The notes under the pieces were generated by a model. The model had not been told where the DNA came from, did not search any database, and saw nothing but the letters and a program-made list of their open reading frames with translations. This document shows, piece by piece, positions 9,547 through 32,177 of a DNA stretch of 49,795 nucleotides. Source of the DNA: Candidatus Alcyoniella australis (GTDB lineage Bacteria > Lernaellota > Lernaellaia > JAVCCG01 > Alcyoniellaceae); the NCBI GenBank assembly GCA_030765605.1, contig JAVCCG010000141.1:1-49795 (forward strand). The letters run 5' to 3'. How positions within the stretch are numbered: position 1 is the stretch's first letter; each line of letters opens with the position of its first letter. A program made the position numbers and the translations under genes.

Positions 9547-9584
9547 GGCATCAAGTCAGCGATGGCTGCGCGGCATGCGGCCGA

Positions 9585-10979
9585 TCACCAGACCAGCGCC
9601 TTGCGGATCCAGGTCAGGGTCAGCAGCGGCAACAACCGCAACGGATTGGGCAGGGTCTGCAGGATTCTCCACAGCCGCGAGGGCCGTAGGTAGAAGCTCC
9701 GATAGGCCTGACGACGTAGACGGCTGAGCGTCTCGTCGGGCATTTGCGACATGTTGATCGCGTCGGACTTGTGGAACTCGTAGTGCTCCATCTCCTGGGG
9801 CATCTCGACTCCGGCGTCCAGCGCCATGCGATACAGGTCGGTGCCCCAGTAGGGAATGACGCGGTAGAACGCCGCGGTGTGCAGCCGTGAGCGTCGGGCC
9901 AGCTCGAGGGTGGCCAACGCCTCTTGCTCGGTCTCGGTGGGGAATCCGAGCATAAACGTCCCGTGGACCATCACTCCCTGGCGTTGTGTGTAGTCGATGA
10001 TGTGTAAAATCTTGTCCAGGTCGTTGTTCTTACGAATCATCTTTTGCAAACGCGGAGAGGCGGTCTCCACGGCGTACATGCAACGGAACATGCCGGCCTT
10101 TTTAAGCAGCCGCACCGACTCCTCGGTCATGATGTCGCCGCGCATGCCGATCGGGAAATGCAGTTTGATGTCGAGTTTGCGTTCGATGATCAGCTCGGCG
10201 ATGCGGTTGATTCGCTTGGGGTAGAGATTAACCATGTCGTCCATGATCACGAACTCACCGACCCCGTATTCGCGTACCAGCGATTGCATCTCATTGACGA
10301 CGTTCTCCGGGCTGCGCACGCGGTTATGTTTGCCCAGGATGTTGTGACAGTAGGCGCAGCGGTAGGGGCAGCCGCGCGATGTGACCATCGCCGCGTAGCG
10401 CTTGTGCGAGAAAATCACGCCGCAACGCTGGATCTTGTAGTAGCCCTCGATATCGATCAGGTCGAAGGCCGGAAAGGGCAGGCTGTCCAGGTCTTCGATG
10501 TAGGGCGCGGGCTCGTGCTGCACCGTCTGGCCATCGCGGCGATAGAGGATGCTCGGCACGTCTTGCAGCTCGCGTTCGCCGCGTAGATGCTCGACCAGCG
10601 CCCCGAGGGCCAGTTCGCCCTCGTTGGGAATCAGGTAGTCGCAGTCGGTCTCGTCCAACGTGCGTTCCGGGCAGTTGGTGGCGTGGGCTCCGCCGATCAC
10701 CAGCGGCACGTCGGGGAATTCGCGCCTGATTGCTTGGGTCAGGGACTGGATTGCCCTGGCGTCGGGACTCATTCCGCTGATGCCGATCAGTTCGGGGCCG
10801 AACTCCCGAGCCGCCTGGATCACCGGCTCGACGCGTTTGATCCGCAGCTGCATATCGAACAGCTTGACCTCGCAGCCGTAGCGTTCGCGCAAATACGATG
10901 CAAGGTACATGATCCCCAACGGCATGCTGCGTTCAACGTCCGGCGTATAGACTGCCGCCTGTGCTAAGAAGACTTTCAT
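9585..10979 (-). CDS. B12-binding-type radical SAM protein (paralogue 2)
   Basis: A 464-residue protein of the same build as its neighbours: an N-terminal cobalamin-type domain (MKVFLAQAAVY, LGIMYLASYL, GISGMSPDARA, VIGGAHATNCPE), then LDSLPFPAFDL and RGCPYRCAYCHNILGK with the Cx3Cx2C cluster motif, and a tail LWRILQTLPNPLRLLP. The start chosen is the ATG whose protein aligns with the other two paralogues; a longer frame back to 11036 adds 19 residues with no family match. The DUF2079-like gene lies divergently 115 bases away. Probably acts with the other paralogues, perhaps on related lipid or polyketide substrates; this is inference. Confidence 0.85.
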   Translation of the reverse strand: MKVFLAQAAVYTPDVERSMPLGIMYLASYLRERYGCEVKLFDMQLRIKRVEPVIQAAREFGPELIGISGMSPDARAIQSLTQAIRREFPDVPLVIGGAHATNCPERTLDETDCDYLIPNEGELALGALVEHLRGERELQDVPSILYRRDGQTVQHEPAPYIEDLDSLPFPAFDLIDIEGYYKIQRCGVIFSHKRYAAMVTSRGCPYRCAYCHNILGKHNRVRSPENVVNEMQSLVREYGVGEFVIMDDMVNLYPKRINRIAELIIERKLDIKLHFPIGMRGDIMTEESVRLLKKAGMFRCMYAVETASPRLQKMIRKNNDLDKILHIIDYTQRQGVMVHGTFMLGFPTETEQEALATLELARRSRLHTAAFYRVIPYWGTDLYRMALDAGVEMPQEMEHYEFHKSDAINMSQMPDETLSRLRRQAYRSFYLRPSRLWRILQTLPNPLRLLPLLTLTWIRKALVW

Positions 10980-11094
10980 GGCCGGGATTATAGCAACGCG
11001 CCTGCGGACCTTGAAAGCGTGTGCACAACTTTCCATGGGTGTAAGTTGCGGATTTGCCTTGGTTGATGTTTGCCAGTATACAAGGCTTTGACCG

Positions 11095-12801
11095 ATGTCG
11101 CAGACTCAGCGAAACAATGATACGCCCGCTACGACAGTAGGGCGCAGAGCGCTGGCAGCCCATTTGACGGTAGCCGCGCTGACATTGAGCTATGCCATTT
11201 GTTTCGCTGTGCTCAAGTGCCTGAAGCTGCGCAACGGTGAGTGGTCGACCATCGATGTTGCGAACAACCTCTATTGGTTCGACCTGATTCTCTCGCCGTG
11301 GTGGCGGGAAATGACGTTCGAGCAGTTTAGCTATTTCCTGACCGGGATCGTGATCCAGCCGATAAGTCTGTTGGTCGGTCTGCTCTGCAAATTGCTGCGC
11401 ACGCCCTATGTTCTGCCGGTGTTGCAGGCACTTTCGATTGCGGCCTGCATCCCGTTGCTTTACGCCGTCGCACTACGCCGGTTGGGGTCGCCGTGGCAGG
11501 CGTTGGTAGTGGCCGCGGCCTTTGCGCTCAATCCTTACATCAACACCGAGACGATGTTCGGCTTCCGTTGGGACGCCTTGGCCTTGCCGCTGATGATCGC
11601 CCTGGTTTTAGCCAGGCAGCTTAACAATCGGCGGCTGTTCTGGGCTGTGTTGGTGCTCGGCTGCGCCTGCAAATTAAATATCCTGCTGATCAACGGCATC
11701 TATTGCGCTATAGCCTATCGCCGCAGCGGACTGTCGTACTTGCGGCGCGGCGTCTGGGTCTGCGCGATCTGGTTCGTCGCCGCGCTGAGTGCGAGCACGC
11801 TGATCAAGCTCTACGCGCCGAACCTGATATTCGACCAAACCCCGCCGGCGATGCTCAGCGCAAATTTGCTCGGACCGTTGGCCGACGATCCGTCCATGCT
11901 CTGGCCGGTACTGGGCGATTTCTTTGGTTCCGGCGCCTGGCTGTGGCTGCCCGAGTATCTGCTGCCGCTGCTGTTTCTGCCGCTGGCCGCTCCAGCTGCG
12001 CTGCTGCCGGTGCTCGTGGAGTTCGGATACGTGTTGCTGTTCTCGCTGGGACTGGAGCAGATGCCCGGACTCAATATTCTGCACGAGCTGATGCTCGATA
12101 AGGGATATCTGTTCATCTATCCGGCGGTGTTTTTAGTCGGGTACCTGCACCTGGCTTCAATCGAGGCAATAGCGAGCCTAAGACAGCGCTATGGCGTGCG
12201 CCGCATACATGCGTTGGCCGGTCTGTGGCTCGTCATGGCCCTGGCCACGCACTGGTTTTTAACGCCGTCGATTTTTGGCCCGGTTCCGCTGACAGACAAG
12301 TTCAACCTGGACTACTACAGGATGTCGGATCATCAGCGTACAGCGTTGGCAGCTTTCGAAAGTTTCCCCAAAGACCTCCAGCCGCTGCTCTCCAGCACGT
12401 TCTGCGAACGTCCCGACGGATACCCGGTTCGTGATTACATCGCTGAATGGCTGCCGGCTGAGTATCACGAATTTAACGTTGTGCTCGTCGATCTCTACGC
12501 TTTCGAGTTCGCCATCAGCCGCCAACGGCTAATCGACAAGCTGTTGTTCCTCACGGTCTCGCACCCGCGAATGGGCGTCACCTATTTCGAGGACGGAATC
12601 ATCGAAATGCGAATGGGCGCGCCGAGGACTCGCAATCGCGAGGTTGCACAGTTCATCGCCGAGAACCTTCCGCTGTTGCTGCACAACCTACCCAATCCCT
12701 ATACCGACGGAGGCCAGATCGATCTCGGGCCTGGGGCTGAGCGCAGATTCTACTCGCCGACCCAGTTGACGTCCGCGGATCGGCAGCGCCTGGGATTATA
12801 A
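11095..12801 (+). CDS. DUF2079-like polytopic membrane protein
   Basis: A 568-residue inner-membrane protein with roughly ten hydrophobic segments in the first 380 residues and a soluble C-terminal region of about 180 residues. Near the N-terminus it has the acidic loop ANNLYWFDLILSPWW and later NTETMFGFRWDALALPL, which resemble conserved stretches of DUF2079 proteins, a family with a glycosyltransferase-C-like layout. If the family call is right it may transfer a sugar from a polyprenyl donor, but no catalytic residue can be named. It is flanked on both sides by minus-strand radical SAM paralogues, and tandem beta-propeller membrane proteins follow. No clear Shine-Dalgarno sequence precedes the ATG. 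Confidence 0.6.
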   Translation: MSQTQRNNDTPATTVGRRALAAHLTVAALTLSYAICFAVLKCLKLRNGEWSTIDVANNLYWFDLILSPWWREMTFEQFSYFLTGIVIQPISLLVGLLCKLLRTPYVLPVLQALSIAACIPLLYAVALRRLGSPWQALVVAAAFALNPYINTETMFGFRWDALALPLMIALVLARQLNNRRLFWAVLVLGCACKLNILLINGIYCAIAYRRSGLSYLRRGVWVCAIWFVAALSASTLIKLYAPNLIFDQTPPAMLSANLLGPLADDPSMLWPVLGDFFGSGAWLWLPEYLLPLLFLPLAAPAALLPVLVEFGYVLLFSLGLEQMPGLNILHELMLDKGYLFIYPAVFLVGYLHLASIEAIASLRQRYGVRRIHALAGLWLVMALATHWFLTPSIFGPVPLTDKFNLDYYRMSDHQRTALAAFESFPKDLQPLLSSTFCERPDGYPVRDYIAEWLPAEYHEFNVVLVDLYAFEFAISRQRLIDKLLFLTVSHPRMGVTYFEDGIIEMRMGAPRTRNREVAQFIAENLPLLLHNLPNPYTDGGQIDLGPGAERRFYSPTQLTSADRQRLGL

Positions 12802-12812
12802 GGACGCTACTT

Positions 12813-14213
12813 TCAGCCGTATCCGCGGATATTTTTTATGAATAGTTTGACGAGCAGCGGCAGCATCAGCAGCTTGTTGGGTAGGCGGCTGATCAGCGAG
12901 AGCATCCGTAATGGATTGCCGTAAAACTGAAAGTAGGCGTTGCGCGAAATGCGGTTGACCGTCTCGAGCGGCTCCGCGCTGAGATTGACGTTGCTTTCCC
13001 ACAGCGACATGGTGCTGCTCGAATCGGGTAGCTCGATCCCCATCCGCTTGGCGATCTCGAACAGCTCGCAACCCTTGTAAGGCGTGGCGCGGTACAGCCC
13101 GATGGTGTGCAGCGGCGAGCGGCGGATGTAGCGGACCGTGTCGCGCATCTCCTGCTCGGTCTCGGTCGGAAGGCCGAGCATCACAGCGCCGTGCAACAGC
13201 ATGCCAAGTTTGTGGGCCGTGTGCATCGCGCGTTCGAGCTTGGGAAAATCGACGTTTTTGTTGATCAGCTTTTGCAGCCGAGGCGTGGCGGTCTCAATGG
13301 CGAACATGATGCGGTAGGTGCCGGCGCGTCGTAAAAGCACGAGCGTCTCATCGTCGAGCACATCGCCGCGAATGCCGGTGGGGAAGGTGATGGCGATCTT
13401 CAGCCCGCGCTCCAAAATCATCTCGCAGATTTTATGTACCCGCTCGCGGATCAGATTGAACGAATCGTCGGCGATCACGATCTCGCGCACGCCGTAATCG
13501 CAATAGAGCCGTTCGATCTCGTCCACGACGTTGCCGGCGCTGCGCGGGCGATAGCGGCGTCCCATGTTGTGATGACAGTAGGCGCAGTCGTAGGGGCAGC
13601 CGCGCGAGGTGAGCATCAGCATGTACTCGCGCCGCGCGGCGATCACCCCCAGCCTGGGATAGCGGTAGTAGGCCTGCATGTCGATCAGGTCCCAGGCCGG
13701 GAAGGGCAGGGAGTCCAGATCCTCGATCGGTTCGCGCGGGGCGGTGCGTTCCGGGCCGTTGGGACCGCGGACGACGCAGCCTGCAATCGCGGACAGCGGG
13801 GAGTCCGATCCCCAGGCGTCGATCAACTCAAGCAGCGTGCGCTCGCCTTCGCCGATCACGGCCGCGTCGATTTGCGGACCTTGCGCGAGAGTTTCGTCCG
13901 GATAGTTGGTGGCATGGCTGCCGCCGACGAAGATCGGCAGGTCGGGCCGCTCCTCGCGCGCCATGGCCGCAAGGCGATACATCACCGGCGATTCGGGGCT
14001 GTGCGAGGAGATGCCCAGTACGTCCGGTTTGAAATCGCGCAGTACTGGTCGAGCACGTTCGGGTTCGCAATCGTCAAAGGTGCGCAAATCGAAGATCCGC
14101 GGTTGGTGGCCGCGTGCACGCAGGGTCGATGCCAGGTACATCAGCCCCAGCGGCTGAGTGCGTTCGATGCGCCAGCGATGAGTTGCAGCCTGCAACAGCA
14201 GGACCTTGGCCAT
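12813..14213 (-). CDS. B12-binding-type radical SAM protein (paralogue 3)
   Basis: A 466-residue protein with the same layout as the two radical SAM genes between 8155 and 10979: an N-terminal cobalamin-type domain (MAKVLLLQAATH, LGLMYLASTLRARGH, LGISSHSPESP, FVGGSHATNYPDE), then LDSLPFPAWDL and RGCPYDCAYCHHNMGRRY with Cx3Cx2C, and a basic tail SRLPNKLLMLPLLVKL. The start at 14213 is supported by AAGGAG four to six bases upstream. A frame extending to 14435 adds 74 residues unlike the paralogues and is rejected. It converges on the DUF2079-like gene with an 11-base gap. Confidence 0.85.
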   Translation of the reverse strand: MAKVLLLQAATHRWRIERTQPLGLMYLASTLRARGHQPRIFDLRTFDDCEPERARPVLRDFKPDVLGISSHSPESPVMYRLAAMAREERPDLPIFVGGSHATNYPDETLAQGPQIDAAVIGEGERTLLELIDAWGSDSPLSAIAGCVVRGPNGPERTAPREPIEDLDSLPFPAWDLIDMQAYYRYPRLGVIAARREYMLMLTSRGCPYDCAYCHHNMGRRYRPRSAGNVVDEIERLYCDYGVREIVIADDSFNLIRERVHKICEMILERGLKIAITFPTGIRGDVLDDETLVLLRRAGTYRIMFAIETATPRLQKLINKNVDFPKLERAMHTAHKLGMLLHGAVMLGLPTETEQEMRDTVRYIRRSPLHTIGLYRATPYKGCELFEIAKRMGIELPDSSSTMSLWESNVNLSAEPLETVNRISRNAYFQFYGNPLRMLSLISRLPNKLLMLPLLVKLFIKNIRGYG

Positions 14214-14576
14214 TACGCTCTCCTTGGAGTTCCTAATTGCGTGCAGTTTTACACGAGGCTCGATCGGAGTCCATGGCCTTGACCACGGACAAGCTTTGCC
14301 CGGGCACGATCTCAACTCCGGAGAAAGTCGTGGGTTAAAGTGTTCTGATATGCACAGCACTGCTGTACGACCCACCTGGCCGGCATTCCACAACAAGATA
14401 CGATCCATGCCCCGGACGTGCCGTACCTGCCGCACCCGGCAGCGATCCAGCGATGTGGGCGAAGTGCTGTCCAGCGGCGGATATAATCGCTGATAAGCTG
14501 TAAATCAATCATGGTTTTACATTAAACTGCGATATCGCTGTTGGAAGCTGAATACCGTATCGAGCTGGTGGTCGCG
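14214..14576. other. Intergenic region (363 bp) between divergent genes
   Basis: Non-coding gap between the minus-strand radical SAM gene and the plus-strand beta-propeller gene, so it should carry two divergent promoters. The only ordered element seen is a 13-bp dyad, ACAGCA-C-TGCTGT, at 14354-14366, enclosed by distant 6-bp arms GTGGGT (14330-14335) and ACCCAC (14370-14375). No convincing -35/-10 pair, RNA gene or conserved short reading frame was recognised. Confidence 0.5.
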
Positions 14577-20978: not shown

Positions 20979-20994
20979 ATTGTCGGAAGCATTT

Positions 20995-21639
20995 ATGACA
21001 GCAGATCGCAAGTCAAGGCGCGGTGATCGCGCGCCGGCACTGTTGCCCGTTGCCAGGCGTCTGTTTTTCGAACGCGGATATCACGGCACGACCATGGAAC
21101 AGGTCGCAACGGGCGCCGGCTTTTCCAAACGCACGGTCTACCTCTATTTTCGCAACAAGGACGAGCTGTTCATCGCTGTTGCCGAAGAAGGTTTATTAAT
21201 CCTGCGCAATCGGCTGGAGCAGATCGATGTCGAGGCGTTGCAGATCGAGCCGTGCATCGAGCAGATTACGCAATGCTACCTATGGTTCGCGCGCGAGCAC
21301 GCGGATTATTTTAAGATCATCTTTCACGAGCCGACCCAGGGCATGATCGCCAATGTCTCCCAGGACCTACGCAAGCGTATTGAGCAGCATGAGCGGGCTT
21401 GCCTGGGTATCGTGGTTAAGGTCGTGGAAAAAGCGGTCAGGCTCGGCGTGGTGTTCGACGTTGACCCCTGGGAGATTGCCGCGATTTTTTGGGGTGCGGT
21501 GACCGGGGTAGTGTTGCTCTCGATGGGCGGAAGCCAGACGATCTTCACCCAACGCACGCGCGAGGAACTCAGCGCCAAGGCGACTTGGATCATCTATCGG
21601 GGGCTGCGCGCGGATGCCGCAAACACTGAACAGGAGTAG
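20995..21639 (+). CDS. TetR/AcrR family transcriptional regulator
   Basis: A 214-residue regulator. Its N-terminal helix-turn-helix is typical: ARRLFFERGYHGTTMEQVA, then GAGFSKRTVYLYFRNKDELF. The C-terminal ligand domain (about residues 75-214) resembles those responding to acyl-CoA or hydrophobic compounds but cannot be assigned to a ligand. GGAAG six bases before the ATG supports this start; an in-frame TTG at 20980 is less likely. It is the first gene of a chain that continues three bases later with two acyl-CoA dehydrogenases and runs to 32177, so it probably controls the whole acyl-CoA operon through the dyad at 20956-20978. Confidence 0.88.
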   Translation: MTADRKSRRGDRAPALLPVARRLFFERGYHGTTMEQVATGAGFSKRTVYLYFRNKDELFIAVAEEGLLILRNRLEQIDVEALQIEPCIEQITQCYLWFAREHADYFKIIFHEPTQGMIANVSQDLRKRIEQHERACLGIVVKVVEKAVRLGVVFDVDPWEIAAIFWGAVTGVVLLSMGGSQTIFTQRTREELSAKATWIIYRGLRADAANTEQE

Positions 21640-21642
21640 ACG

Positions 21643-22872
21643 GTGATCTATCAGGATGTGTTCGCTCTTCCTCTTCCGTGGCTTGGCGAGCTGGATTGCT
21701 CTTTGGCCGATACGGTTGAGCGTTGGGCACAGCAGGAATTAATCCCCAAACGTCATGAGCTGGGAGAGGATTATCAGCTGCTGCTGCGACCGGCCCTTGA
21801 AAAGCTGTTCGTCGAGATCGGATTGCAAAAACTGATCTGGCCCGAGGATCAGGGCGGAGCCGGACTGGACGGCGCACAGTCCGCGCTCGCGGTCTGTGCA
21901 GTGCTTGAGCAAATCGGACGGGCCGACGTGGGAATCGGACTACTGTTGTCCAGCACGCTCGCCGTGCAATCGAGCTGCGGCATCGCAGAGCAACACGACG
22001 CCGAATTGTTTAAACGCTTTAGCCCGTTTTTCTGCAATGACCAGGCGAGCATCGCCGCGCTGATCTTGCCCGATTACAGCATTGACGATCGTGCCTCAGG
22101 CGATTTTCACGGGCTGCCCTATCAGCTGCGAACGCGTTGCGAAAATGACGAGTGGATCCTCGATGGCGAAGAGGTCCGAGCGCTGTGCTCCGGCTTTGAC
22201 GCCGCATTGTTCGGCGTTGTCTGTCTGCTGGACGGCAAACCCGGCATGCTGCTGGTACCCGCTGATTCAGATGGTTTGACCCGTGGCGATCAGTTGCTCA
22301 CCACCGGTCTTGCCGCCAGCCGCGATTGCGAGCTGTGCTTTGACAACGTACGCGTGCCCAAGGGCAATCTGGTATTCGCCGACGAGGAGCAATTGGTTTT
22401 GTTGCTTGCCCGGCAAATGCTGGGATCTGCCGCGACAAGCGCCGGGGCTGGACTGGCCTGCTACGAGATCCTCAAGGAATGGGGCGAGACGCGGGTGATC
22501 AAGGGGCGCGGCTGCGTGTTCAAGGACAACCCGTTGACCGCGGCGCTGATGGGACGCATCGGCGGCAAAATCTGCACAGCGCGTCTGCAGGCCTACTCAT
22601 TGGCCAAGCTGATCGCCGATCCGATGTCGTTCGGACTCAACGCCGCCGAGCACTTGTTGGCCAACGCCACTGCCGTAGCCTCATCAATCTGTAGCTCGAC
22701 GATCGAGGCGTTGGATCACACCATGGAACTGATGGCCTCGGCCGGGTACGCCAGCGAATGGCAGCTCGAGCGCTATTGGCGCGACATTAAGACGCTTCAA
22801 TCACGCCTCGGCCCGCTGCCCCAGCGCGAGGCGAGCATGGCTCGGGGCTTCTTCGGCTCCGCGGGGGTTTAG
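21643..22872 (+). CDS. Acyl-CoA dehydrogenase-like flavoprotein, subunit/paralogue 1
   Basis: A 409-residue protein (GTG start, AGGAG upstream) with the acyl-CoA dehydrogenase order: an N-terminal helical domain (LADTVERWAQQELIPKR, WPEDQGGAGLDG), a middle beta domain (DCELCFDNVRVPKGNL) and a C-terminal helical domain. The FAD/CoA-base region that normally reads RD.K...IYEGT reads RDIKTLQSRLGPL: the catalytic Glu position appears to be Leu389. The classic middle-domain FAD motif is also weak. It is followed one base later by a second, better-preserved paralogue, so the two may form a hetero-oligomer such as is known for mycobacterial ChsE1-ChsE2. It may be catalytically inactive or use another base. 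Confidence 0.82.
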   Translation: MIYQDVFALPLPWLGELDCSLADTVERWAQQELIPKRHELGEDYQLLLRPALEKLFVEIGLQKLIWPEDQGGAGLDGAQSALAVCAVLEQIGRADVGIGLLLSSTLAVQSSCGIAEQHDAELFKRFSPFFCNDQASIAALILPDYSIDDRASGDFHGLPYQLRTRCENDEWILDGEEVRALCSGFDAALFGVVCLLDGKPGMLLVPADSDGLTRGDQLLTTGLAASRDCELCFDNVRVPKGNLVFADEEQLVLLLARQMLGSAATSAGAGLACYEILKEWGETRVIKGRGCVFKDNPLTAALMGRIGGKICTARLQAYSLAKLIADPMSFGLNAAEHLLANATAVASSICSSTIEALDHTMELMASAGYASEWQLERYWRDIKTLQSRLGPLPQREASMARGFFGSAGV

Positions 22873-22873
22873 C

Positions 22874-24142
22874 ATGCGCAGCATCGACGATTTCACGCGA
22901 CCGCTTGAATATTTGGCACTGCTCGACGATCCACTGGGCAAGATCGTGCGCCACTGGGCCGATACCGAGGTGATCCCGAACCGTCGCCGCTATGACGAGG
23001 ATTGGGAACGCCACGAGTTGATCGAGCCGGCCTTTGACAAGCTGATGGCCGGGCTGGGACTACAGCGGATGCTGCTGCCCCAGGACCTCGGCGGTTTCGG
23101 AATGGGCAGCTCGAGCTATTTGGGCACCGGCGCCTGTCGGATTTTCGAGGAGGTGGCGCGAGCCGACTCGGGCATGGCCGTGGCCTTCGGCGTTGTGTTT
23201 TGGCCGCTGCTGATGATCTGTTGCGAGCCGCACGTCAATCGACGGTTGTGCGAGGAGTTCGCACCGCTGTTTCTCGATCCGCACAAGGCGCGCTTTGCAG
23301 CCAACGCGATGACCGAGCCCCAGGGCGGAGCTGACATCGAGAACATGGATTTGCTCAAGGGCAGCACAATTCGCACTACCGCCAAGCTCGATGGCGACCA
23401 GTGGGTGATTAACGGGCACAAGCTGTGGCCGACCAACTCCGGCGGAATCGCCGATCTGTTCGGCGTGGTTTGCACTACCGATCCGGGCTCCCAGCGTCCC
23501 GAGGACTTCGCCTTTATTTTCGTGCCCGCAAACACTCCGGGCGTGACCCAAAGCAAGCCCTACCAAAAGGCGGGTATGGCCGCGGACAAGAACAGCGACA
23601 TCTGGTTCGACAATGTGCGCGTGCCCGACTATTTTCGCGCCTGCGGGCCGGGTGATGATTTCCGTCGCTTCAAAGAGGTCGTCAGTTTCGGCAACCTGGG
23701 AAGCCTGTCCTTTGTCAGCGGCGTGCTGCTCAACACCTTCGAGATTGTCTCTGATTTTTGTTCCAAGCGTAGGTTCCGCAACAAGCCGCTGCTGGAAAAC
23801 GACGATGTCGCCGGATCGCTGGCAGACCTGGCGAGCTCAATCGAGGTAATACGCATTTGCGCATACCAGTACGCGCGAATGATCGACAGGCCGGACCTCT
23901 ATGGCGAGCGCGGCAGCGATAAGATCGTGGCCAAGGGCAGGGCGCTCAAATATTTTGCCTGCGACCGCGCCATGTCCGAGATCGGCCGCGCCATCGAGCT
24001 GATGGGCCAGCACGGCGCAGATCGCGAGCTGGATCTGGAGAAACATTGGCGCGATTTGAAGATCGTTCAGCTCTGGATGGGCGGCAAACAACTTTGCCAG
24101 GTCGAGACAGCGCGCTGGTTTTACGGATGCAAGACATTATGA
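22874..24142 (+). CDS. Acyl-CoA dehydrogenase-like flavoprotein, subunit/paralogue 2
   Basis: A 422-residue paralogue of the preceding gene. The middle domain is better kept: NAMTEPQGGADIENM, WVINGHKLWPTNSG and DIWFDNVRVPDY, which match FAD- and substrate-binding stretches. At the expected catalytic segment it reads RDLKIVQLWMGGKQ, so Glu in YEG is replaced by Met402. A Glu in FKEVVSFGNLGS lies near where isovaleryl-CoA dehydrogenase and some relatives carry their base, and could serve; this is a by-eye alignment. The stop overlaps the next start (ATGA). With the reductase-like genes downstream, it may act on an acyl-CoA made or consumed by that complex. Confidence 0.84.
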   Translation: MRSIDDFTRPLEYLALLDDPLGKIVRHWADTEVIPNRRRYDEDWERHELIEPAFDKLMAGLGLQRMLLPQDLGGFGMGSSSYLGTGACRIFEEVARADSGMAVAFGVVFWPLLMICCEPHVNRRLCEEFAPLFLDPHKARFAANAMTEPQGGADIENMDLLKGSTIRTTAKLDGDQWVINGHKLWPTNSGGIADLFGVVCTTDPGSQRPEDFAFIFVPANTPGVTQSKPYQKAGMAADKNSDIWFDNVRVPDYFRACGPGDDFRRFKEVVSFGNLGSLSFVSGVLLNTFEIVSDFCSKRRFRNKPLLENDDVAGSLADLASSIEVIRICAYQYARMIDRPDLYGERGSDKIVAKGRALKYFACDRAMSEIGRAIELMGQHGADRELDLEKHWRDLKIVQLWMGGKQLCQVETARWFYGCKTL

Positions 24143-24843
24143 GCGAGCAACGGATTGAACGGCGCGGTGTGTTCGACGGCAGCGCCCGCGTGTTGCGCGA
24201 GCTGCTGGCTTCGCCTAGATGGCGGCAGACGATCCGCATCCTGCTGAACGAGCTCGACCCGCAAAACGCTCATCGACTGGTGGCGGTACTGTTCGAGGTC
24301 GACCCGGAGCTGGCTCTTTCAGCCGCCGCGTCCGCTCCCAAGCTTTGCAACGCAATGATCGACGGCGGAGCCGAGCTGCTGGGGCGCATGGCCGATTTTC
24401 AACCCGATTTGCTGCGGGAGTTTTTCAACCAATTAGTCGATCAAATTGACCTGCGGGGATTGGGGCGGCTGACCGGACTGTATTTAATTCTGGCAGCGCG
24501 AATCGCTGCACCGCGCGAAATTAACAATAAAGATGAACAAGGCGTGCGGACCGATGGGTTCGCTGAAGGCCTGAGCGAGGTGCTTGTTCAGCGCGAAGCA
24601 AAGCTGGACGTGCTGTTGCCGCAACTTGCCGACACGCTGATCAATGCCGCGGATCGGGCTGCCCGCACGCTGGCCGCGGATGTGAAGCGCGAGGATTCGA
24701 CCACGGTAAAAACAGTTGAGACGCTTACCAGCGGTATCAGACGCGTTGCCGCTGACAACCCGGATTTCATCGAGCGGGTGCTACGTCCGCTGGCACTGGC
24801 AATGAGCGACGCCGTGGGAACGGAGGGCTCGGACAATGGCTGA
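24139..24843 (+). CDS. Helical protein of unknown function, member 1 of a three-gene family
   Basis: A 234-residue, predicted soluble and all-helical protein of no family I recognise. It opens with SARVLRELLASPRWRQT, followed by a module of about 75 residues (DPELALSAAASAPKLCNAMI..ELL..F.PDLLREFFNQLVDQIDL..LGRL) that recurs in the next two genes. No signal peptide, no cysteine motif. The ATG overlaps the stop of the acyl-CoA dehydrogenase gene and the gene ends eight bases inside the next one, so production is probably coupled. It may be a scaffold or assembly factor for the flanking enzyme; that rests on context only. Confidence 0.7.
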   Translation: MSEQRIERRGVFDGSARVLRELLASPRWRQTIRILLNELDPQNAHRLVAVLFEVDPELALSAAASAPKLCNAMIDGGAELLGRMADFQPDLLREFFNQLVDQIDLRGLGRLTGLYLILAARIAAPREINNKDEQGVRTDGFAEGLSEVLVQREAKLDVLLPQLADTLINAADRAARTLAADVKREDSTTVKTVETLTSGIRRVAADNPDFIERVLRPLALAMSDAVGTEGSDNG

Positions 24844-25402
24844 GCTGCAATCGACGTCGGCCCGCGTGCTCCGCGAGCTGCTGGCCACTCCAGCGTTTCG
24901 CGAGATCGTGCTGCTCAACGTGCGTGAGATGCAGCCCGAAGAGGCGCGAGAGCTGGTGCGCACCGCACTGTGGACTGATCCGGCTTTCTCGCTGAGCATG
25001 GCGGCTGCCGCGCCCCAGGCGGTCAATTGTCTGATAGAGGCGTTGGTGGAGCTGGCCGTACAGTTGAACAGTTTTCCGCCGCAGATGATGAATGAGTTCG
25101 GCGCAGGGTTGGCGCAACAGGTTCGAACCGAACGCTTGACCGACCTGGCAGGCGAGCTGCGCACGTTGATCCAGCGCACGCTGCAGAACGATCCGCAGCT
25201 TGGGAAACAACTGACAAGCAATGCGATCAAGGCGGTAAACGGCCTGGTGCGCGCGGCGAATCAGATGCTCGATGATCGCCGACGTTCCCGCGAGCTGTTC
25301 GCCGATCTGGACGTCGGGCAGCTGCTGCGGCTGGCATGGCGCCTTGGCTGGTCGCTGGTGCGCGAACTTGTATCACGAGCGCTTGGTGGACGAGGCAGAT
25401 AG
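24836..25402 (+). CDS. Helical protein of unknown function, member 2 of a three-gene family
   Basis: A 188-residue helical protein, clearly related to the gene just before it: SARVLRELLATPAFREI at the N-terminus, then DPAFSLSMAAAAPQAVNCLI, ELAVQLNSFPPQMMNEFGAGL and a helix pair LRTLIQRTLQ..LGKQL. The C-terminal third (residues 150-188) is basic and amphipathic (LLRLAWRLGWSLVRELVSRAL), possibly a membrane-surface helix. It starts inside the previous gene (8-base overlap). No catalytic motif. Function unknown, tied by operon position to the acyl-CoA system. Confidence 0.7.
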   Translation: MAELQSTSARVLRELLATPAFREIVLLNVREMQPEEARELVRTALWTDPAFSLSMAAAAPQAVNCLIEALVELAVQLNSFPPQMMNEFGAGLAQQVRTERLTDLAGELRTLIQRTLQNDPQLGKQLTSNAIKAVNGLVRAANQMLDDRRRSRELFADLDVGQLLRLAWRLGWSLVRELVSRALGGRGR

Positions 25403-25436
25403 TGCGCGGCGCACGACACGGCTTTTGGGGGAGATA

Positions 25437-26615
25437 ATGGAAGAACAAGTTACCCGCAAGATGACCGACGAGCTTCCGGCGCTGATTAAAAGTCAGGCAA
25501 AGGCTTGCGACGAGTTGAGGCCGGCGGTTGGCGAGACGGTTGCGGCGCTCGATTTTGGCAAGCTGCGCATCAGCGTAATCGGGCTCTCGGACTCGGCCAC
25601 CTTGCTCGGCGAGGAGTTCATTGATCACGCCTTGGCCGACCCGGTCTCGTTCGCCAACCTGTTCAGCATGATCGTGCCGCTGGTAAACAATGAACTGCGG
25701 CTGTTGGCGCACTTACTCGAACAAATCGACCTGCCCGACGAGATTCTCGCCAGTTCGGTATTCAACATGCTCGGGGATCTTGATACCGAGCAGATCGCCC
25801 GAGCGCTCAATGCTTTGGCCGTGCGCCTTAACGAGATCCATCGCGGCAGCATGATTTTGGGCCGCGATGAACCCCGGCTGCGTAAGGTTTTGACCGAGTT
25901 CGGCGAGTCGCTGATGAACAAATTCGATCATGAACAGCTCGCGGCCGCATCGCTGGCACTGGCCGAGGACCTGGAAGTTGCGCTGAAGGTATCCAACGCG
26001 CTGCTCGCCTCGGACCCCAAATTATTGCAAATCAGCGGTAATGCGGCACTGGCCTTTGGCAGCGCGACGCTTTCGGGGATGGCCGGCATGTTGCGGGCCA
26101 TCGAGGGCATGCCGGAAGACGAGTTGACCAGCTTCTTGGCCGGGATCGGCAATGAACAGCAGGTCGAAAGCATGGCCGAGGCGCTCAACGCTGCCTTGGC
26201 GCTGGTCAATAGATTTGCCGCGCTGAATAAAGACGACAACGTAACCGCGGGGCTGGTCGAGCGCATCGATCGACAACAACTCGAGTTGGCCGCGTGCAAC
26301 CTGACGCAAAATCAGGCGTTGCAAAACGCCTTGAATCCCGAGCAGGTCGGAAAATGGCTCAACGCACGACTGACGAGTTTCAACAGCCGGGCAAAGCAGG
26401 GGGATGATCGCCCGCCGGGATATTTTAGGCAGGTATTTGATCAGCTCGATTCGCAACAGCTCGAGCAGGCGTTGAACAAGGTGCTGCGCGGCGCGACCGA
26501 CGCGCTGCTCTCGAGTCCGAAACGCGCCGCTGCCCTGATCCGTCCGCTGCTGGCCGCCGGTTGGAGAATCGTCACCATGCCGCTGAGGCGTCTGGTGCGG
26601 AGGGTCTGGAGATGA
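25437..26615 (+). CDS. Helical protein of unknown function, member 3 (long) of a three-gene family
   Basis: A 392-residue helical protein starting at an ATG preceded by GGGGGAG. It carries the family module in its middle (DPKLLQISGNAALAFGSATL, then AIEGMPEDELTSFLAGIG) and additional similar helical units on both sides, so it looks like a multi-unit version of the two shorter neighbours. The C-terminus ends in a very basic helix (MPLRRLVRRVWR). Longer starts overlapping the previous gene lack a ribosome site. Its stop overlaps the ATG of the next gene. No known function; scaffold, chaperone or membrane-surface tether are possibilities only. Confidence 0.68.
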   Translation: MEEQVTRKMTDELPALIKSQAKACDELRPAVGETVAALDFGKLRISVIGLSDSATLLGEEFIDHALADPVSFANLFSMIVPLVNNELRLLAHLLEQIDLPDEILASSVFNMLGDLDTEQIARALNALAVRLNEIHRGSMILGRDEPRLRKVLTEFGESLMNKFDHEQLAAASLALAEDLEVALKVSNALLASDPKLLQISGNAALAFGSATLSGMAGMLRAIEGMPEDELTSFLAGIGNEQQVESMAEALNAALALVNRFAALNKDDNVTAGLVERIDRQQLELAACNLTQNQALQNALNPEQVGKWLNARLTSFNSRAKQGDDRPPGYFRQVFDQLDSQQLEQALNKVLRGATDALLSSPKRAAALIRPLLAAGWRIVTMPLRRLVRRVWR

Positions 26616-27736
26616 TGATGCAACAGTTGATGGAACAGGCGGGCATGCTGCGCAACGATTACCTCGCGGCCTGGCAGGAGGACGGCGGTAAGGTCGTGGG
26701 CTACGCTTGCGTGGCCACGCCGACCGAGATAATCGAGGCCGCCGGATTGCTGCCCTATCGCATTCGCGCCTTGGGCAACAACCGCACCGAGTTGGCCGAT
26801 GCGCACCTCTCGCGTTTCAATTGCAGCTTCTGCCGCTCGTGCCTGCAACTCGGGCTCGAGGGCAGTCTCGACTTTCTCGACGGGCTGATCGAGACCAACG
26901 GATGCGACCACATCCGCGGGATGTTCGAGAACTGGCAATACGCCAAGCCCAGCGAGTTTTTCCACTACGTTAAAGTCCCGCATCTGGTTAACCAGGACAG
27001 CCTGGAATACTTCAGCGAAGAGCTGCGGCTATTTGGCAAGGCGTTGGGGGATCACTTCGGGGCCGATATTACCGACGAGAAACTATGGCAGGCGATCGAG
27101 AACGAGGATCGTCTGCGCGGGTTGCAGCGAGAGATCTATACCATGCGTGAGGGATCGCAGCCGTTGTTCAGCGGCAGCGAATCTTTGTCGCTTTGCCTGG
27201 TGGCGAGCTCCACGCCAACGGAGAAGACCATCGAATTGCTGCGTTCGGCGATCGACGAGCGCAAGGAAAACGGGATCAAGGAGTATCGAGCGCGGCTGAT
27301 GTTCGGAGGCTCGGCAACCGACGAGATCGAGCTGTTGCAGATGATCGAAAAACTCGGCGGCCTGATCGTCAGCGATTTGCTGTGCTACGGCTCACGCAGC
27401 TTCTGGGATCGCAACCTCGATCGCGGGTCAGACCCCTACGACACCTTGGCAAAATTATATCTGCAAAACCTCTCGTGCCCGCGGATGTTCGACGAGTTTT
27501 CCTATCGCCGAAAACTGCTGCTCGACGCGGTGAGTCGATCGGCAGCGGACGGGGTGATCCTGGTCCACAATAAATTCTGCGACGTGCACGGCATCGACAA
27601 TGTCCAGCTAAGACTGGCGTTGGAGAAAGAGGGGGTTCCGGTTTTGACCCTCGAAAAGGAGTACGGCGCAGCGGCTGATCTGGGTCGAATGCGCACACGC
27701 GTGCAGGCTTTCCTCGAGCGGATCGGAGCACGCTGA
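26612..27736 (+). CDS. 2-hydroxyacyl-CoA dehydratase / benzoyl-CoA reductase family subunit (BcrC/HgdB-like)
   Basis: A 374-residue cytoplasmic Fe-S subunit. Family signs run in order: GYACVATPTEIIEAAGLLPYR, then NCSFCRSCLQLGLEG, DHIRGMFENWQY, MFGGSATDEIELLQMIEKLG and, near the end, VHNKFCDVHG with TLEKEYG...RTRVQAFLE. Cysteines at ACVA, CSFCRSC and KFC are the likely 4Fe-4S ligands. Members catalyse radical-type eliminations or ATP-dependent ring reduction on acyl-CoA, powered by an activator ATPase. GGAGG at 26599-26603 and the ATGA overlap support the start. Together with the next gene it would form the substrate-binding heterodimer. Whether it is a dehydratase or a reductase cannot be decided from sequence. 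Confidence 0.85.
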   Translation: MMMQQLMEQAGMLRNDYLAAWQEDGGKVVGYACVATPTEIIEAAGLLPYRIRALGNNRTELADAHLSRFNCSFCRSCLQLGLEGSLDFLDGLIETNGCDHIRGMFENWQYAKPSEFFHYVKVPHLVNQDSLEYFSEELRLFGKALGDHFGADITDEKLWQAIENEDRLRGLQREIYTMREGSQPLFSGSESLSLCLVASSTPTEKTIELLRSAIDERKENGIKEYRARLMFGGSATDEIELLQMIEKLGGLIVSDLLCYGSRSFWDRNLDRGSDPYDTLAKLYLQNLSCPRMFDEFSYRRKLLLDAVSRSAADGVILVHNKFCDVHGIDNVQLRLALEKEGVPVLTLEKEYGAAADLGRMRTRVQAFLERIGAR

Positions 27737-29142
27737 TGTACTCCGAGCAGGTGGGATTGTTCGATCGGGTGGCCTCGATCCTCGATCTGTGCAAGCGCAT
27801 GCCCGACACGATGAGCGACGAGGAAGTGGAGGGGCTGCTCAAGTTTCTGCCCACGGATTCGCAGAATTCGATCCGCGCGATGCTCGTGCCACGCTTTCGC
27901 GACGTCAGCGTCAAGTTTCTCAAGCTGGTGGCCAAATGGGTGCACACCGCGCGCAAGGCTCCGTTGGAGGGCAAGAAGGTAATTATCGTGCCGTTCAATT
28001 TCCCGCCGGAGCTGATTCACGCCTTTGACAATGCCTGCCCGATCACCAGTGAGATCCTCTCGACGCTGGGCGTGGTGGCCCTGGAGGGGCAGGGCGAGCG
28101 CTATTGGGACATGGCGATGGGGCTTGGATTGCCCGACCACTCTTGCTCGTCGAGCACCATCGAGCTGGGATCGATGCTCGGCTCGAGCGACTTTCGGCCG
28201 CAGGCCATCGTCTCGGCCGCACCCGGCGGGTGCGACGTCAACGCCAAGATCCACGAGTTCGTCTCGAACTATCTGGACATCCCGCAGTTTTTCCTGGCCA
28301 AGATCCCGGACGACTCCCAGCGTGGCCACGCTCAATACAGCGTGGAGGCGCGAAAGCTGATCAAGAGTCTGGAGCAGTTTGTGGGCGAGGAGCTGACCGA
28401 GGACAAGCTGCGCAAAGTGATGGAGCGCGCCAACCGCTGCACTGAGCTGCACTACGAGCTGTGGGATCTGCAACGCGCGCGGCCATGCCCGGTCCCCAAC
28501 CTGTTCTCGCTCTACCTCTACGGCGTGCGCTTCTCGATGTGGGGCACCCAGGACGGGATCGAGATGCTTGAGGCGATGGTCGATCTCGCTAAACAGCGGC
28601 TCAAGCAAGGGGCCTACCCGGCGCCGCAAGAAAAAGCCCGCACCCTGTGGTGCTACACCAGCTACTATTTCGACTTTGCCAACCTGTTCAACTGGATGGA
28701 GGAGAGCGGTTACACGCACCTCGGCGACGGACTGGACCTGTATTTTCCGCAGCCGGTGGACACATCGAGCATGGACAGCATGATCGAAGGCTTTGCCGAG
28801 GCTGCGCGCAACATGCCGATGACGCGCCAGGTGGGCGGCCAGTCGATGTCCGGCCAATGGACCGAAGACTGCATTACCGCGGCGCAACAGCTCGATGCAG
28901 ACTGTGTGATCTACTGCGGACATCACTCATGCAAGCAGACCTGGTCGGTGCTCTCGATATTGCGTAGCGAGATCGAGCGGCGCACGGGACTGCCGATGTT
29001 GGTACTGCAGGGCGACTCGTGGATCAGGCGCATGACTCCGATCAGCGTGATCCAACACGAGATCGACGAGTTCGTACAAAACGTCGTGGCGCGCAAGGAA
29101 CAGGGCAAGCGTCGGTCGCGAAAACACAAATCGATAAACTGA
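27736..29142 (+). CDS. 2-hydroxyacyl-CoA dehydratase / benzoyl-CoA reductase family subunit (BcrB-like)
   Basis: A 468-residue partner of the preceding subunit, starting within its stop codon (TGATG). It matches the larger subunit type: FNFPPELIHAFDNACPITSE, then CSSSTIELGSMLG, SAAPGGCDVNAKIHEF, and a C-terminal VIYCGHHSCKQTWS followed by GLPMLVLQGDSWIRR and a final helical stretch. Cys residues in NACP, CSSS, GGCD and HHSC are candidates for the second 4Fe-4S cluster. Class I benzoyl-CoA reductase has exactly such a pair plus two ATPases, and the two ATPase genes follow. The very basic tail (KRRSRKHKSIN) is unusual. Substrate unknown. Confidence 0.84.
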   Translation: MYSEQVGLFDRVASILDLCKRMPDTMSDEEVEGLLKFLPTDSQNSIRAMLVPRFRDVSVKFLKLVAKWVHTARKAPLEGKKVIIVPFNFPPELIHAFDNACPITSEILSTLGVVALEGQGERYWDMAMGLGLPDHSCSSSTIELGSMLGSSDFRPQAIVSAAPGGCDVNAKIHEFVSNYLDIPQFFLAKIPDDSQRGHAQYSVEARKLIKSLEQFVGEELTEDKLRKVMERANRCTELHYELWDLQRARPCPVPNLFSLYLYGVRFSMWGTQDGIEMLEAMVDLAKQRLKQGAYPAPQEKARTLWCYTSYYFDFANLFNWMEESGYTHLGDGLDLYFPQPVDTSSMDSMIEGFAEAARNMPMTRQVGGQSMSGQWTEDCITAAQQLDADCVIYCGHHSCKQTWSVLSILRSEIERRTGLPMLVLQGDSWIRRMTPISVIQHEIDEFVQNVVARKEQGKRRSRKHKSIN

Positions 29143-29151
29143 GGGAGCCCG

Positions 29152-29943
29152 ATGCTGTTCGCCGGAATCGACGTCGGATCGCTCACCGCAGAAGCGGTGG
29201 TGGTCAACTCAACAGGAATCGTGGCCGGACAGAGCATGTCGGTGCTGCCCAATCCGGTGGACTCGGCGCGCGAAGTGCTGGGCAGACTGCTGCGGCAGCA
29301 GGGCATTGCACTAAAGCAGATCGAATACACGATCAGCACGGGCTACGGCCGTGAGCAGGTGCAGCTCGAGGGCATGGCCCAGAGCAACGTCAGCGAGATC
29401 TCGTGTCACGGCATGGGAGCCTACGCGCAGTTGCCGCGGGTGCGCACGGTGATCGATATCGGCGGCCAGGATGCCAAGGTAATCAAACTCGACGAGGCGG
29501 GCGAGTTGGCCGACTTTGTGATGAACGACAAGTGCGCCGCGGGCACCGGGCATTTCCTCGAGATCATGAGCCGGGCATTGGGCGTCACGCTGGAGCAGCT
29601 CGGGCCGCTGTCGTTGGGTTCCAGGACGCCGATCGAGATGAGCAATCGTTGCAGCATTTACGTTGAGACCGAGGTGATCCATTACTTGCAACGCGGTGCG
29701 TCAAAGGTCGATTTGGCCGCTGGGATCAACCGTTCAATGGCCGAACGCGTCGTTGCTCTGGTGCGGCGCGTGAAGCCCAAGCGCGAGGTGATGCTCACCG
29801 GCGGTGTGGCCAAGAACGTTGCTGTGCGTGCGGAACTAGAGCGCATGTTGCAGGTCAAGATGGTTCGTCCGCAAATCGACCCGCAGCTGATCGGCGCCTA
29901 CGGTGCGGCTGTGCTTGCATCGCGCATCGGAGATGCACAGTGA
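29152..29943 (+). CDS. BcrA/BcrD/HgdC-type acyl-CoA dehydratase/reductase activator ATPase 1
   Basis: A 263-residue ATPase of the ASKHA fold, short activator type. Motifs: GIDVGSLTAEAVV (phosphate 1), VIDIGGQDAKVIK (phosphate 2), NDKCAAGTGHFLEIMSRALG with the first cluster Cys, SNRCSIYVETEV with the second, and LTGGVAKN (adenosine). In HgdC two such cysteines from a homodimer hold one bridging 4Fe-4S cluster; ATP hydrolysis drives electrons to very low potential into the partner. The spacing from the previous gene is nine bases with GAGGGAG before the ATG. Function within the family is secure. Confidence 0.9.
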   Translation: MLFAGIDVGSLTAEAVVVNSTGIVAGQSMSVLPNPVDSAREVLGRLLRQQGIALKQIEYTISTGYGREQVQLEGMAQSNVSEISCHGMGAYAQLPRVRTVIDIGGQDAKVIKLDEAGELADFVMNDKCAAGTGHFLEIMSRALGVTLEQLGPLSLGSRTPIEMSNRCSIYVETEVIHYLQRGASKVDLAAGINRSMAERVVALVRRVKPKREVMLTGGVAKNVAVRAELERMLQVKMVRPQIDPQLIGAYGAAVLASRIGDAQ

Positions 29944-30707
29944 TCACAGTGGGTGTGGATGTGGGCAGTCTGCTGACCAAGATGGTCGTGCTCGATGGCG
30001 ACGATTTGGTCGCGAGTTCGATTAACGACACCACGGGAAACATCGTCGACGAGCTTCCGGTCTGGATCGAAGATCTTTTGTCTAAAGCAAAGCTCGAGCG
30101 TTCGCAAATTAAACGGCTGGCCGCAACCGGCAACGGCGCCGATCTGGTCAAGGGCGCGGATTTTAGCGAGGACGAGGTCGCCTGTGTGGCTGCCGCAGCC
30201 TACTTTTCCATTGCACAAATTGAAATGGCGATTCACATCGGCGGCCAGAGCATTACAGCGCTGAGCATGGACGAAAACGGCGAGGTTAAAAGCTTCATGC
30301 GCAACGATAAATGCGCCTCGGGCTCCGGACGATTTATAGAAAACATGGCGTCCAAACTCAATGTCTCGCTGACCGATATTGAAGATTTGGTGGCGCAGTC
30401 GGAAAAACAGGTTTTGATCAGCAATCAATGCGGGGTGTTCGCGGAGAGCGAGGTGATCAGCCACGTCAACGACGGAGAACGGGTGCCCGATATTTTCGCC
30501 GGGATCTGCGCTGCGGTTGCCAACATTGTGGTTTCACAAGGACGCCGGTTCGCCGCTGCCGAACATTTCACACTTACCGGCGGCGTGGCCCGCATAACGC
30601 CGATTGTGAAGATGATCTGCGATAAGCTCGGCGGCGAATATCACGAACTGCCCTACGATCCGCGCCTGGCCGCGGCGATCGGGGCGGCCGTGCTTGCAGG
30701 ATCGTGA
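29940..30707 (+). CDS. BcrA/BcrD/HgdC-type activator ATPase 2
   Basis: A 255-residue paralogue of the preceding ATPase (GTG start overlapping its stop, GTGA). It retains GVDVGSLLTKMVVLDGD, IGGQSITALSMDENG (Ser for the usual Asp), NDKCASGSGRFIENMA and SNQCGVFAESEV with both cluster cysteines, and LTGGVARI. Two different activator ATPases side by side is the pattern of class I benzoyl-CoA reductase (BcrA plus BcrD) rather than of dehydratases, which use a single homodimeric activator. It probably forms a heterodimer with the preceding protein that injects electrons into the two Fe-S subunits upstream. Confidence 0.88.
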   Translation: MITVGVDVGSLLTKMVVLDGDDLVASSINDTTGNIVDELPVWIEDLLSKAKLERSQIKRLAATGNGADLVKGADFSEDEVACVAAAAYFSIAQIEMAIHIGGQSITALSMDENGEVKSFMRNDKCASGSGRFIENMASKLNVSLTDIEDLVAQSEKQVLISNQCGVFAESEVISHVNDGERVPDIFAGICAAVANIVVSQGRRFAAAEHFTLTGGVARITPIVKMICDKLGGEYHELPYDPRLAAAIGAAVLAGS

Positions 30708-30711
30708 ACCG

Positions 30712-31428
30712 ATGGGTCTGTTCGATGAACAGCTGACAACGCTACGCAGCCTGGTCCGCGATATCGAAGCGGCATCCCAGATTCAAACTTTTAATCAAGA
30801 GCAGTGTCCGACGTGGCCCCGCGGCTCGAGTCTGGTGCTCGAGGAAGACACAGCACTGGAGCTGGGTAATCCCAGCCTTGGATCGCTGATGCTGCTGCTG
30901 TGGTCTGAAGACCCTGCGGCCGTGGACAACGGTCGCGTGACCCTGATCGGTCCGGACGTCGATCAGTTGGAACGCTCGAGTGCATTTTGTCAGGTATTGA
31001 TAGTGGCCGGACGATTTGACGAGCCGTACGAGCGTTATCGCGATCTGCGTGACGCTGTCTACAATACGCGGCTGGATGGGTTGATGGTGCGCAGCGTGGC
31101 CAGCCGACAGACCGCGTGGTGCAGGATCAGTCACGACGCTTTGAAGCGCGGAATGACGCTGCCGATTATCGGCGCTGAACTGTTGCGCTCGTTAAGCGAG
31201 TTGGAATTTGTCGATGCCGCGGAAACGCTGTTGATAACCGCGGGCAAGGAGACAATCGAGAAACTCAGGCCATTGGCCGACATGCTGGGAAACATCGTCG
31301 GTGCGTTGATTAAAATGCACGAGGAGCCGCTGCTTCAATGCGATAGCTGCGACTATCGCGAGATCTGCGAAGGGGTCGCGGAGCTCAAGCGGATCAGACG
31401 AGAGCTGAGGACGGGAGCGGATCGATGA
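30712..31428 (+). CDS. Acetyl-CoA synthase (CdhC/AcsB)-like domain protein, short form
   Basis: A 238-residue protein resembling one domain of the acetyl-CoA synthase beta subunit. By memory alignment: EEDTALELGNPSLGSL, GRVTLIGPDVDQL, VLIVAGRFDEPYERYRDLRD and TAWCRISHDALKRGMTLPIIG correspond to ACS segments around ELGGP, GPDID, ERRIH and RISK....G....IG. It ends with LQCDSCDYREICEG, a Cx2Cx5C set placed where ACS has the first cysteines of its A-cluster (Cx2Cx8C). The fourth cluster Cys and the CGC that holds the second nickel are absent, and ACS is about three times longer. Possibly a small Fe-S or nickel protein serving the reductase-like complex. A TTG at 30694 is an alternative start. The CooC-like gene overlaps its stop. 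Confidence 0.62.
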   Translation: MGLFDEQLTTLRSLVRDIEAASQIQTFNQEQCPTWPRGSSLVLEEDTALELGNPSLGSLMLLLWSEDPAAVDNGRVTLIGPDVDQLERSSAFCQVLIVAGRFDEPYERYRDLRDAVYNTRLDGLMVRSVASRQTAWCRISHDALKRGMTLPIIGAELLRSLSELEFVDAAETLLITAGKETIEKLRPLADMLGNIVGALIKMHEEPLLQCDSCDYREICEGVAELKRIRRELRTGADR

Positions 31429-32177
31429 GCAAGATGATTATTGCGGTCTGCGGCAAGGGCGGAGTGGGTAAAACCACAGTCTCCGCGATGATCTCCCGCA
31501 GCCTGTTTCTTTCCGGCAAACCGCGTACGTTGCTGGTCGACGCTGATCCGTCCAGCGGCCTTGCCATTGCCTTGGGAATGGAGCCGGAGCGCACGGTGGA
31601 GTATCTGCGTAACAACACCATCGGCGAGGTCAGGCAGGGCCGGACCGACAAGCGCGATCTTGCGCAATCGCTGGACTACTTGCTGCTCGATGCATTGGTC
31701 GAACGCGGCAACCTGGCGCTGCTCTCTATCGGACGACCGGAACAGCGCGGTTGCTACTGTTCGGTAAACTCACTTTTACGTGAGGCGATCGAACTGCTGG
31801 CCGGGCAGTTCGATCTGGTGCTGATCGACGCTGAGGCCGGAGTGGAGCAGGTCAACCGCGAGGTGCTGCGCGGAGTCGATAAATTGCTGCTGGTGGGCGA
31901 CACGTCGCAGAAATCGTTGCGCGTAACCATGACCATCGATGAGGTGGCCCGCAAGTACGCAGCTGACATTGAATCGTTGCTGCTAATCAACCGTGTGCGC
32001 GAGACAGATGAATATTCGCAATCAGTCGCATCGACCAATCTCAAGTTTGCGCTGGGGATTCCCGAGGACGGAACCGTGCGCGAGTACGACGCCGAGGCGC
32101 GCTCGTTTTTGCAGATGCCCGATTGCCCGGCCACAGCAGCGGTGGATGAGCTGCTGGCCTTAATGCGCTTGACCTGA
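31425..32177 (+). CDS. CooC-type nickel-insertion ATPase (MinD/SIMIBI class)
   Basis: A 250-residue P-loop ATPase. The deviant Walker A is CGKGGVGKTT (residues 9-18), DADPSSGLAIALG follows the P-loop strand, and LVLIDAEAGVEQVNREVL corresponds to the CooC switch II region. A Cys-X-Cys motif, GRPEQRGCYCSVNSLLRE (Cys110 and Cys112), matches the pair that binds nickel at the dimer interface in CooC1. CooC proteins insert nickel into CO dehydrogenase or acetyl-CoA synthase. No CODH gene is in the window, so the client is probably the ACS-like protein whose gene it overlaps by four bases, or the Fe-S subunits upstream. Family call strong, client inferred. Confidence 0.88.
   Translation: MSKMIIAVCGKGGVGKTTVSAMISRSLFLSGKPRTLLVDADPSSGLAIALGMEPERTVEYLRNNTIGEVRQGRTDKRDLAQSLDYLLLDALVERGNLALLSIGRPEQRGCYCSVNSLLREAIELLAGQFDLVLIDAEAGVEQVNREVLRGVDKLLLVGDTSQKSLRVTMTIDEVARKYAADIESLLLINRVRETDEYSQSVASTNLKFALGIPEDGTVREYDAEARSFLQMPDCPATAAVDELLALMRLT

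Follow-up and report, generated by a model that had tools for sequence, protein, structure and literature searches.

The window, a 49,795-nucleotide stretch of DNA from Candidatus Alcyoniella australis (contig JAVCCG010000141.1), encodes a small relative, here called mini-ACS, of acetyl-CoA synthase (ACS), an ancient enzyme of carbon fixation. Mini-ACS is passed on together with a CooC-family ATPase of its own and, in most cases, with a double-cubane reductase of the HgdB/BadF type. The gene neighborhood is the strongest clue to the role of this protein. Our tentative reading, to which we give somewhat less than an even chance, is that mini-ACS is an accessory protein carrying an Fe−S cluster or metal and that, together with its CooC, it may serve a benzoyl-CoA-reductase-like enzyme. 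Ancestry in the ACS middle domain is already known. What appears to be new is its free-standing occurrence with a rewired cysteine motif, a CooC as constant partner and a double-cubane neighborhood, since no description of the family was found in the open-access literature, including that on CdhC-like proteins, on CooC together with benzoyl-CoA reductase and on Archaeoglobus dehydratase operons.

The mini-ACS gene (30712 to 31428, plus strand; 238 amino acids) begins with an ATG four bases past the BadF2 gene and overlaps the following gene by four bases at its 3′ end. The initial annotation had pointed to segments resembling ACS, and these are present: ELGNP (residues 50 to 54), IGPDVD and RISH....G....IG. 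The one significant Pfam domain is CdhC, the ACS middle domain (PF03598; 44.5 bits against a cut-off of 24, E = 2e-11), over residues 44 to 178 (30841 to 31245, plus strand). The ACS models of NCBIfam hit this region too (E = 2e-10 to 6e-9), but with scores that fall far short of the equivalog cut-offs (39.6 of 800 and 35.3 of 355.95 bits). A sequence comparison with the PDB gave 15 chains at E values up to 10, every one of them ACS/CdhC, and a profile built from ten members of the family finds ACS at E = 9e-15 in a profile-profile comparison. In a joint alignment, E50, G52, G123, W136, R138, A143, G147 and T176 are common to the mini-ACS and ACS families. A complete AcsB of 734 amino acids is encoded elsewhere in the same genome (contig C88); measured against it, mini-ACS has, as first described, about a third of the length of ACS.

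To predict the fold, template-free AlphaFold2 was run on the window protein together with five sequences from Archaeoglobi. Among the five models, the top one had a mean pLDDT of 85 and a pTM of 0.83, the remaining four having mean pLDDT values of 76.5, 70.4, 48.9 and 36.7. All 22 Foldseek matches under 0.001 are ACS. VIA-align superimposed the model on residues 316 to 496 of 1OAO, the ACS middle domain, with a Z score of 17.9 (2.6 Å over 171 residues). Only ACS scored above Z 5, the best unrelated row reaching Z 4.1; non-ACS folds (Z about 4 or less) were not counted as relatives. The link to ACS thus stands by both the CdhC profile search and the fold comparison. Because the superposition is confined to ACS residues 316 to 496, the modeled mini-ACS consists of an ACS middle domain preceded by a helix and followed by a short tail, which bears the cysteines. 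Family and fold are shared with ACS/CdhC over mini-ACS residues 30 to 205, whereas mini-ACS has no N-terminal domain for binding CODH and hardly any of the A-cluster domain. The earlier name “mini ACS” therefore holds as a statement of kinship, supported by profile, profile-profile and fold comparisons, but not as that of a whole ACS made smaller.

The tail contains the motif Cx2Cx5C (CDSCDYREIC, residues 210 to 219; 31339 to 31368, plus strand), standing where the A-cluster motif starts in ACS. It had been noted from the window alone, and we found its three cysteines, C210, C213 and C219, in all 17 members of the family, as are E50, G52, S58, G123, W136, R138 and R229. Because the three cysteines persist in 17 of 17 relatives, whose identity is about 26 to 45%, the motif is no product of chance. 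The A-cluster cubane motif Cx2Cx8Cx9C, whose spacing is present in all 34 ACS rows compared, does not occur in mini-ACS; nor do the CGC distal-nickel ligands, which the AcsB of the same genome has. The reported absence of a fourth cysteine and of CGC is thus confirmed, only C210, C213 and C219 being invariant in the family, and mini-ACS as a true ACS was ruled out by the missing A-cluster motif and CGC. A hidden fourth conserved cysteine was sought in the branch containing the window protein, and none was found among C32, C93, C137 and the position of C94 in Archaeoglobi. The spacing does differ from that of ACS, as claimed, but the change goes beyond the loss of a fourth ligand, and a sister branch has four cysteines.

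Two alignment registers relate the tail to the A-cluster. The profile alignment places C210 and C213 on the first two A-cluster cysteines of ACS. In the joint MAFFT alignment, the first cysteine of the sister branch, C210 and C219 correspond to ACS cluster cysteines 1, 2 and 3, and C213 is new; one reading sets ACS ‘YSCT---LCQSFAPxHVC’ against mini-ACS ‘YECTTGLDCTECPEKPVC’. The latter register would mean that the A-cluster motif was kept in part and rewired, while the profile register differs. SPASM and Cas4-type iron-sulfur motifs also have the Cx2Cx5C form; the spacing is alike, but kinship in sequence or fold to mini-ACS was not seen here.

The 17 mini-ACS genes are scattered over bacteria and Archaeoglobi: the window gene, two in genome G045, one each in G002, G030, G177, G315, G262, G380, G190 and G322, and six in Archaeoglobi (6 of 59 genomes). 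Searches of the small phyla to which G030, G262 and G380 belong yielded no further members. A tree that also contained 28 ACS rows places all 17 on one side of a branch with support of 100/100. Within them, two branches have only moderate supports (91/92 and 93/88): a four-cysteine branch (Cx4-5Cx2Cx5C, n = 8) of G030, G177, G315, G262, G380, G190, G322 and one G045 copy (G045b), and a three-cysteine branch (Cx2Cx5C) of the window protein, the other G045 copy (G045a), G002 and the Archaeoglobi. Since mini-ACS is a partial ACS, it might be a decayed acsB fragment devoid of function. The chance of this is next to negligible, given a clade of its own with long branches and invariant residues, the same gene order in bacteria and archaea, and tight gene overlaps; conservation, synteny and the separate full acsB led us to reject it.

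In the window, mini-ACS lies in an operon, not mentioned in the initial annotation, that is read entirely from the plus strand: two acyl-CoA dehydrogenases (21643 to 22872 and 22874 to 24142), three open reading frames for helical-repeat proteins, HgdB1, HgdB2, BadF1, BadF2, mini-ACS and CooC. The second dehydrogenase is 55 to 57% identical in Archaeoglobi and 75% in G002. The listed start of the first helical-repeat protein (24046 to 24843) overlaps this dehydrogenase, the real start probably being later; the second (24836 to 25402) is followed by a third (25434 to 26615), whose start codon is uncertain and which is kept at the same place in Archaeoglobi. The Archaeoglobi homologue, which occupies the place of the window frames at 24046 to 26615, is 25 to 27% identical, and neither it (427 amino acids) nor the G002 homologue (617 amino acids) matched a Pfam family. 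Outside the operon, we noticed by eye a TetR-like regulator gene directly upstream (20980 to 21639) and, grouped together at 8155 to 14435, three related radical-SAM-like genes of the B12-binding kind. A DsrK/TmcB-like iron-sulfur electron-transfer protein (6889 to 8145), with a small membrane protein upstream, is possibly an electron outlet for acyl-CoA.

HgdB1 (26561 to 27736, plus strand; PF06050, E = 3.2e-85) belongs to the HGD-D family and is closest to BzdN (E = 3.6e-48), for which the six cysteine ligands of the [8Fe-9S] cluster have been given (PMC11971306). C50, C88, C115, C275, C306 and C340 of HgdB1 align with C36, C73, C100, C263, C293 and C327 of BzdN, and these six double-cubane ligands are invariant in all seven close relatives compared. 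HgdB2, a more distant protein of the same family (27736 to 29142, plus strand; PF06050, E = 1e-52), conserves C137, C166 and C399, the putative cluster cysteines, as well as C390 and H396. BzdO has three such cysteines and the catalytic residues Glu65 and His131; His131 lies three residues past the second cluster cysteine, a place taken in HgdB2 by Asn (N169) as judged by spacing relative to the cysteines, a direct HgdB2-BzdO alignment not having been obtained; the chemistry therefore need not be benzoyl-CoA reduction. Activator ATPases are expected to have two cysteines each, and both BcrAD/BadFG-type proteins of the window retain them: BadF1 (29152 to 29943, plus strand; PF01869, E = 2.7e-57) with C128 and C167, and BadF2 (29940 to 30707, plus strand; PF01869, E = 1.4e-40) with C125 and C164. 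The NCBIfam equivalog cut-offs for benzoyl-CoA reductase are not reached by these neighbors (161 of 453.8 and 118.8 of 421.2, among others). In the six [8Fe-9S] ligands of HgdB1, the three putative cluster cysteines of HgdB2 and the two BadF proteins, the operon resembles class I benzoyl-CoA reductase BzdNOPQ, 2-hydroxyacyl-CoA dehydratases and double-cubane cluster proteins; unlike it, the described systems lack mini-ACS, CooC and the helical proteins.

This gene order is repeated in G002 and, with a single helical gene, at four Archaeoglobi loci (L003, L004, L007 and L086). The other two Archaeoglobi loci are partly cut or have two HgdB2 copies, a tandem pair replacing the single gene at L005:3683-6461 and L006:84-2232. 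HgdB-type subunits adjoin mini-ACS in 15 of the 17 loci, usually with BadF activators. In the four-cysteine branch, the order HgdB1-HgdB2-BadF-mini-ACS-CooC is found in G380, in G262 with one gene before CooC, and in G315 as a variant with an interposed molybdopterin enzyme; a molybdopterin enzyme of DMSO-reductase type II, similar to ethylbenzene dehydrogenase, lies between both HgdB genes at L055:4336-7242. G045b, G322 and, in a locus cut by the contig start, G190 have the order BadF-mini-ACS-HgdB1-HgdB2. In G030 and G177 (L021 and L054), mini-ACS and CooC stand beside a divergent tungsten-type aldehyde ferredoxin oxidoreductase (AOR) and ferredoxin (L021:11303-13802 and L054:9436-11859), with HgdB genes absent from the flanking DNA examined but numerous elsewhere in both genomes. 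In two related genomes, the gene right after mini-ACS-CooC encodes LarE, the sulfur transferase of the nickel-pincer cofactor (TIGR00268; L021:8665-9483 and L055:11121-11948).

The gene for the partner ATPase (31425 to 32177, plus strand) overlaps mini-ACS by four bases. Its best PDB match is CooC1 (3KJE, E = 4e-12), and it keeps the Walker A motif GKGGVGKT and a CxC site, C110-Y-C112; all mini-ACS-linked CooCs examined have kept both P-loop and CxC. AcsF delivers nickel to ACS. Nickel delivery to CODH is the role of CooC proteins, and the two conserved cysteines of CooC1 hold Zn or Ni at the dimer interface (PMC6006190). The window ATPase shares the deviant Walker A and CxC with CooC1 and AcsF, but it is not located beside CODH or ACS and branches apart from the CooC of the acs locus in its own genome. 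CooC adjoins mini-ACS in 14 of 17 loci, counting G262 with its one intervening gene; in the remaining three (G045b, G322 and G190), mini-ACS lies beside HgdB without a neighboring CooC, and a CooC-type ATPase is encoded elsewhere in each genome. The linked CooCs form a clade (support 98/99) that includes the distant CooC of G322 but neither the copy at the acs locus of the window genome (C88) nor a G045 CooC that is not linked to mini-ACS; a similar gene in G190 is incomplete and was left out of the tree. Because the canonical acsB locus of the window genome has a separate CooC, the mini-ACS-linked copy is not the general one. A putative CooC of this kind is encoded in every genome with mini-ACS, and it is mainly for this reason that we consider the two a functional pair.

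An adaptor or carrier is the simplest reading of a free-standing ACS domain that has a cysteine cluster and its own CooC. The initial suggestion of a remodeled metal-cluster carrier fits, as far as sequences can indicate, the invariant cysteines and the CooC-type partner. The tail of mini-ACS would bind an Fe−S cluster or metal; the ATPase may dock on mini-ACS, by analogy with the CooC/AcsF ATPases that serve CODH/ACS, and spend ATP to load or hand on the metal or cluster; and the pair could thereby mature, repair or activate the neighboring enzyme. The client would usually be the HgdB1-HgdB2 reductase fed by BadF1-BadF2 and, in two genomes, perhaps the tungsten AOR. In the window, this enzyme probably acts on an acyl-CoA along with the two acyl-CoA dehydrogenases. 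That the branch of the window protein has only three conserved cysteines counts against a carrier. Recombinant production of double-cubane proteins, DCCP for example, has succeeded without the mini-ACS-CooC pair, which is therefore no general requirement for a double-cubane cluster. A more specific proposal, which we regard as a long shot, is that the pair would supply nickel or another hetero-metal, or else an unusual cluster, either to mini-ACS itself or to the active site of HgdB2.

It is tempting to ask whether mini-ACS instead retains organonickel/CO chemistry at a rebuilt nickel-iron-sulfur site loaded by CooC. The ACS ancestry, the CxC site of the partner ATPase and the LarE genes beside the pair would agree with this, but such chemistry is very unlikely in a protein that lacks the CGC ligands of nickel, the fourth ligand of the ACS cluster and all but a remnant of the A-cluster domain. 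Alternatively, mini-ACS might sense redox state or acyl-CoA and so gate CooC or the reductase without carrying a metal to it. This role would suit a small protein with a probable ligand-binding domain and a short cysteine tail able to bind zinc or Fe−S; we consider it improbable, as Pfam finds no DNA-binding or signaling domain and mini-ACS is always encoded alongside enzymes and an ATPase.

The main rival, and a serious one, makes mini-ACS a working subunit of the reductase: its ACS middle domain would hold CoA or acyl-CoA while Fe−S in the tail would relay electrons between the activator, HgdB and acyl-CoA. It is serious because an interaction of CoA with the middle domain of ACS, exactly the part that mini-ACS keeps, has been reported in a passage citing the C. 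autoethanogenum complex (PMC12289521). The residues common to both families and the acyl-CoA enzymes encoded nearby agree with this role, and the three loci that tie mini-ACS to HgdB without an adjoining CooC fit a subunit or electron carrier. It leaves unexplained, however, why CooC is kept in every genome, and by homology HgdB2 should already own an acyl-CoA site. The presence of the pair beside AOR, without HgdB in the flanking DNA examined (L021 and L054), favors an accessory pair over an obligatory enzyme subunit. We thus regard the subunit as a possibility on the doubtful side and retain the accessory carrier as our preferred, tentative reading.

Mini-ACS represents the reuse of an ancient ACS middle domain that has shed its nickel chemistry, has a cysteine motif and a CooC-type ATPase to itself, and lies beside double-cubane reductases, with which its lineage travels between bacteria and archaea. 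Short matches annotated as ‘CO dehydrogenase beta subunit’ are no proof of a Wood-Ljungdahl pathway. If a hetero-metal were indeed loaded, a new Ni-Fe-S or remodeled A-cluster-derived cofactor would operate in an ATP-driven acyl-CoA reductase. If the pair serves to mature or activate an enzyme, the way in which some of the lowest-potential biological reductases gain or keep unusual iron-sulfur centers would become directly testable. The usual location of mini-ACS-CooC beside an ATP-driven, benzoyl-CoA-reductase-like enzyme hints at a helper or subunit, so far undescribed, of a demanding reduction.
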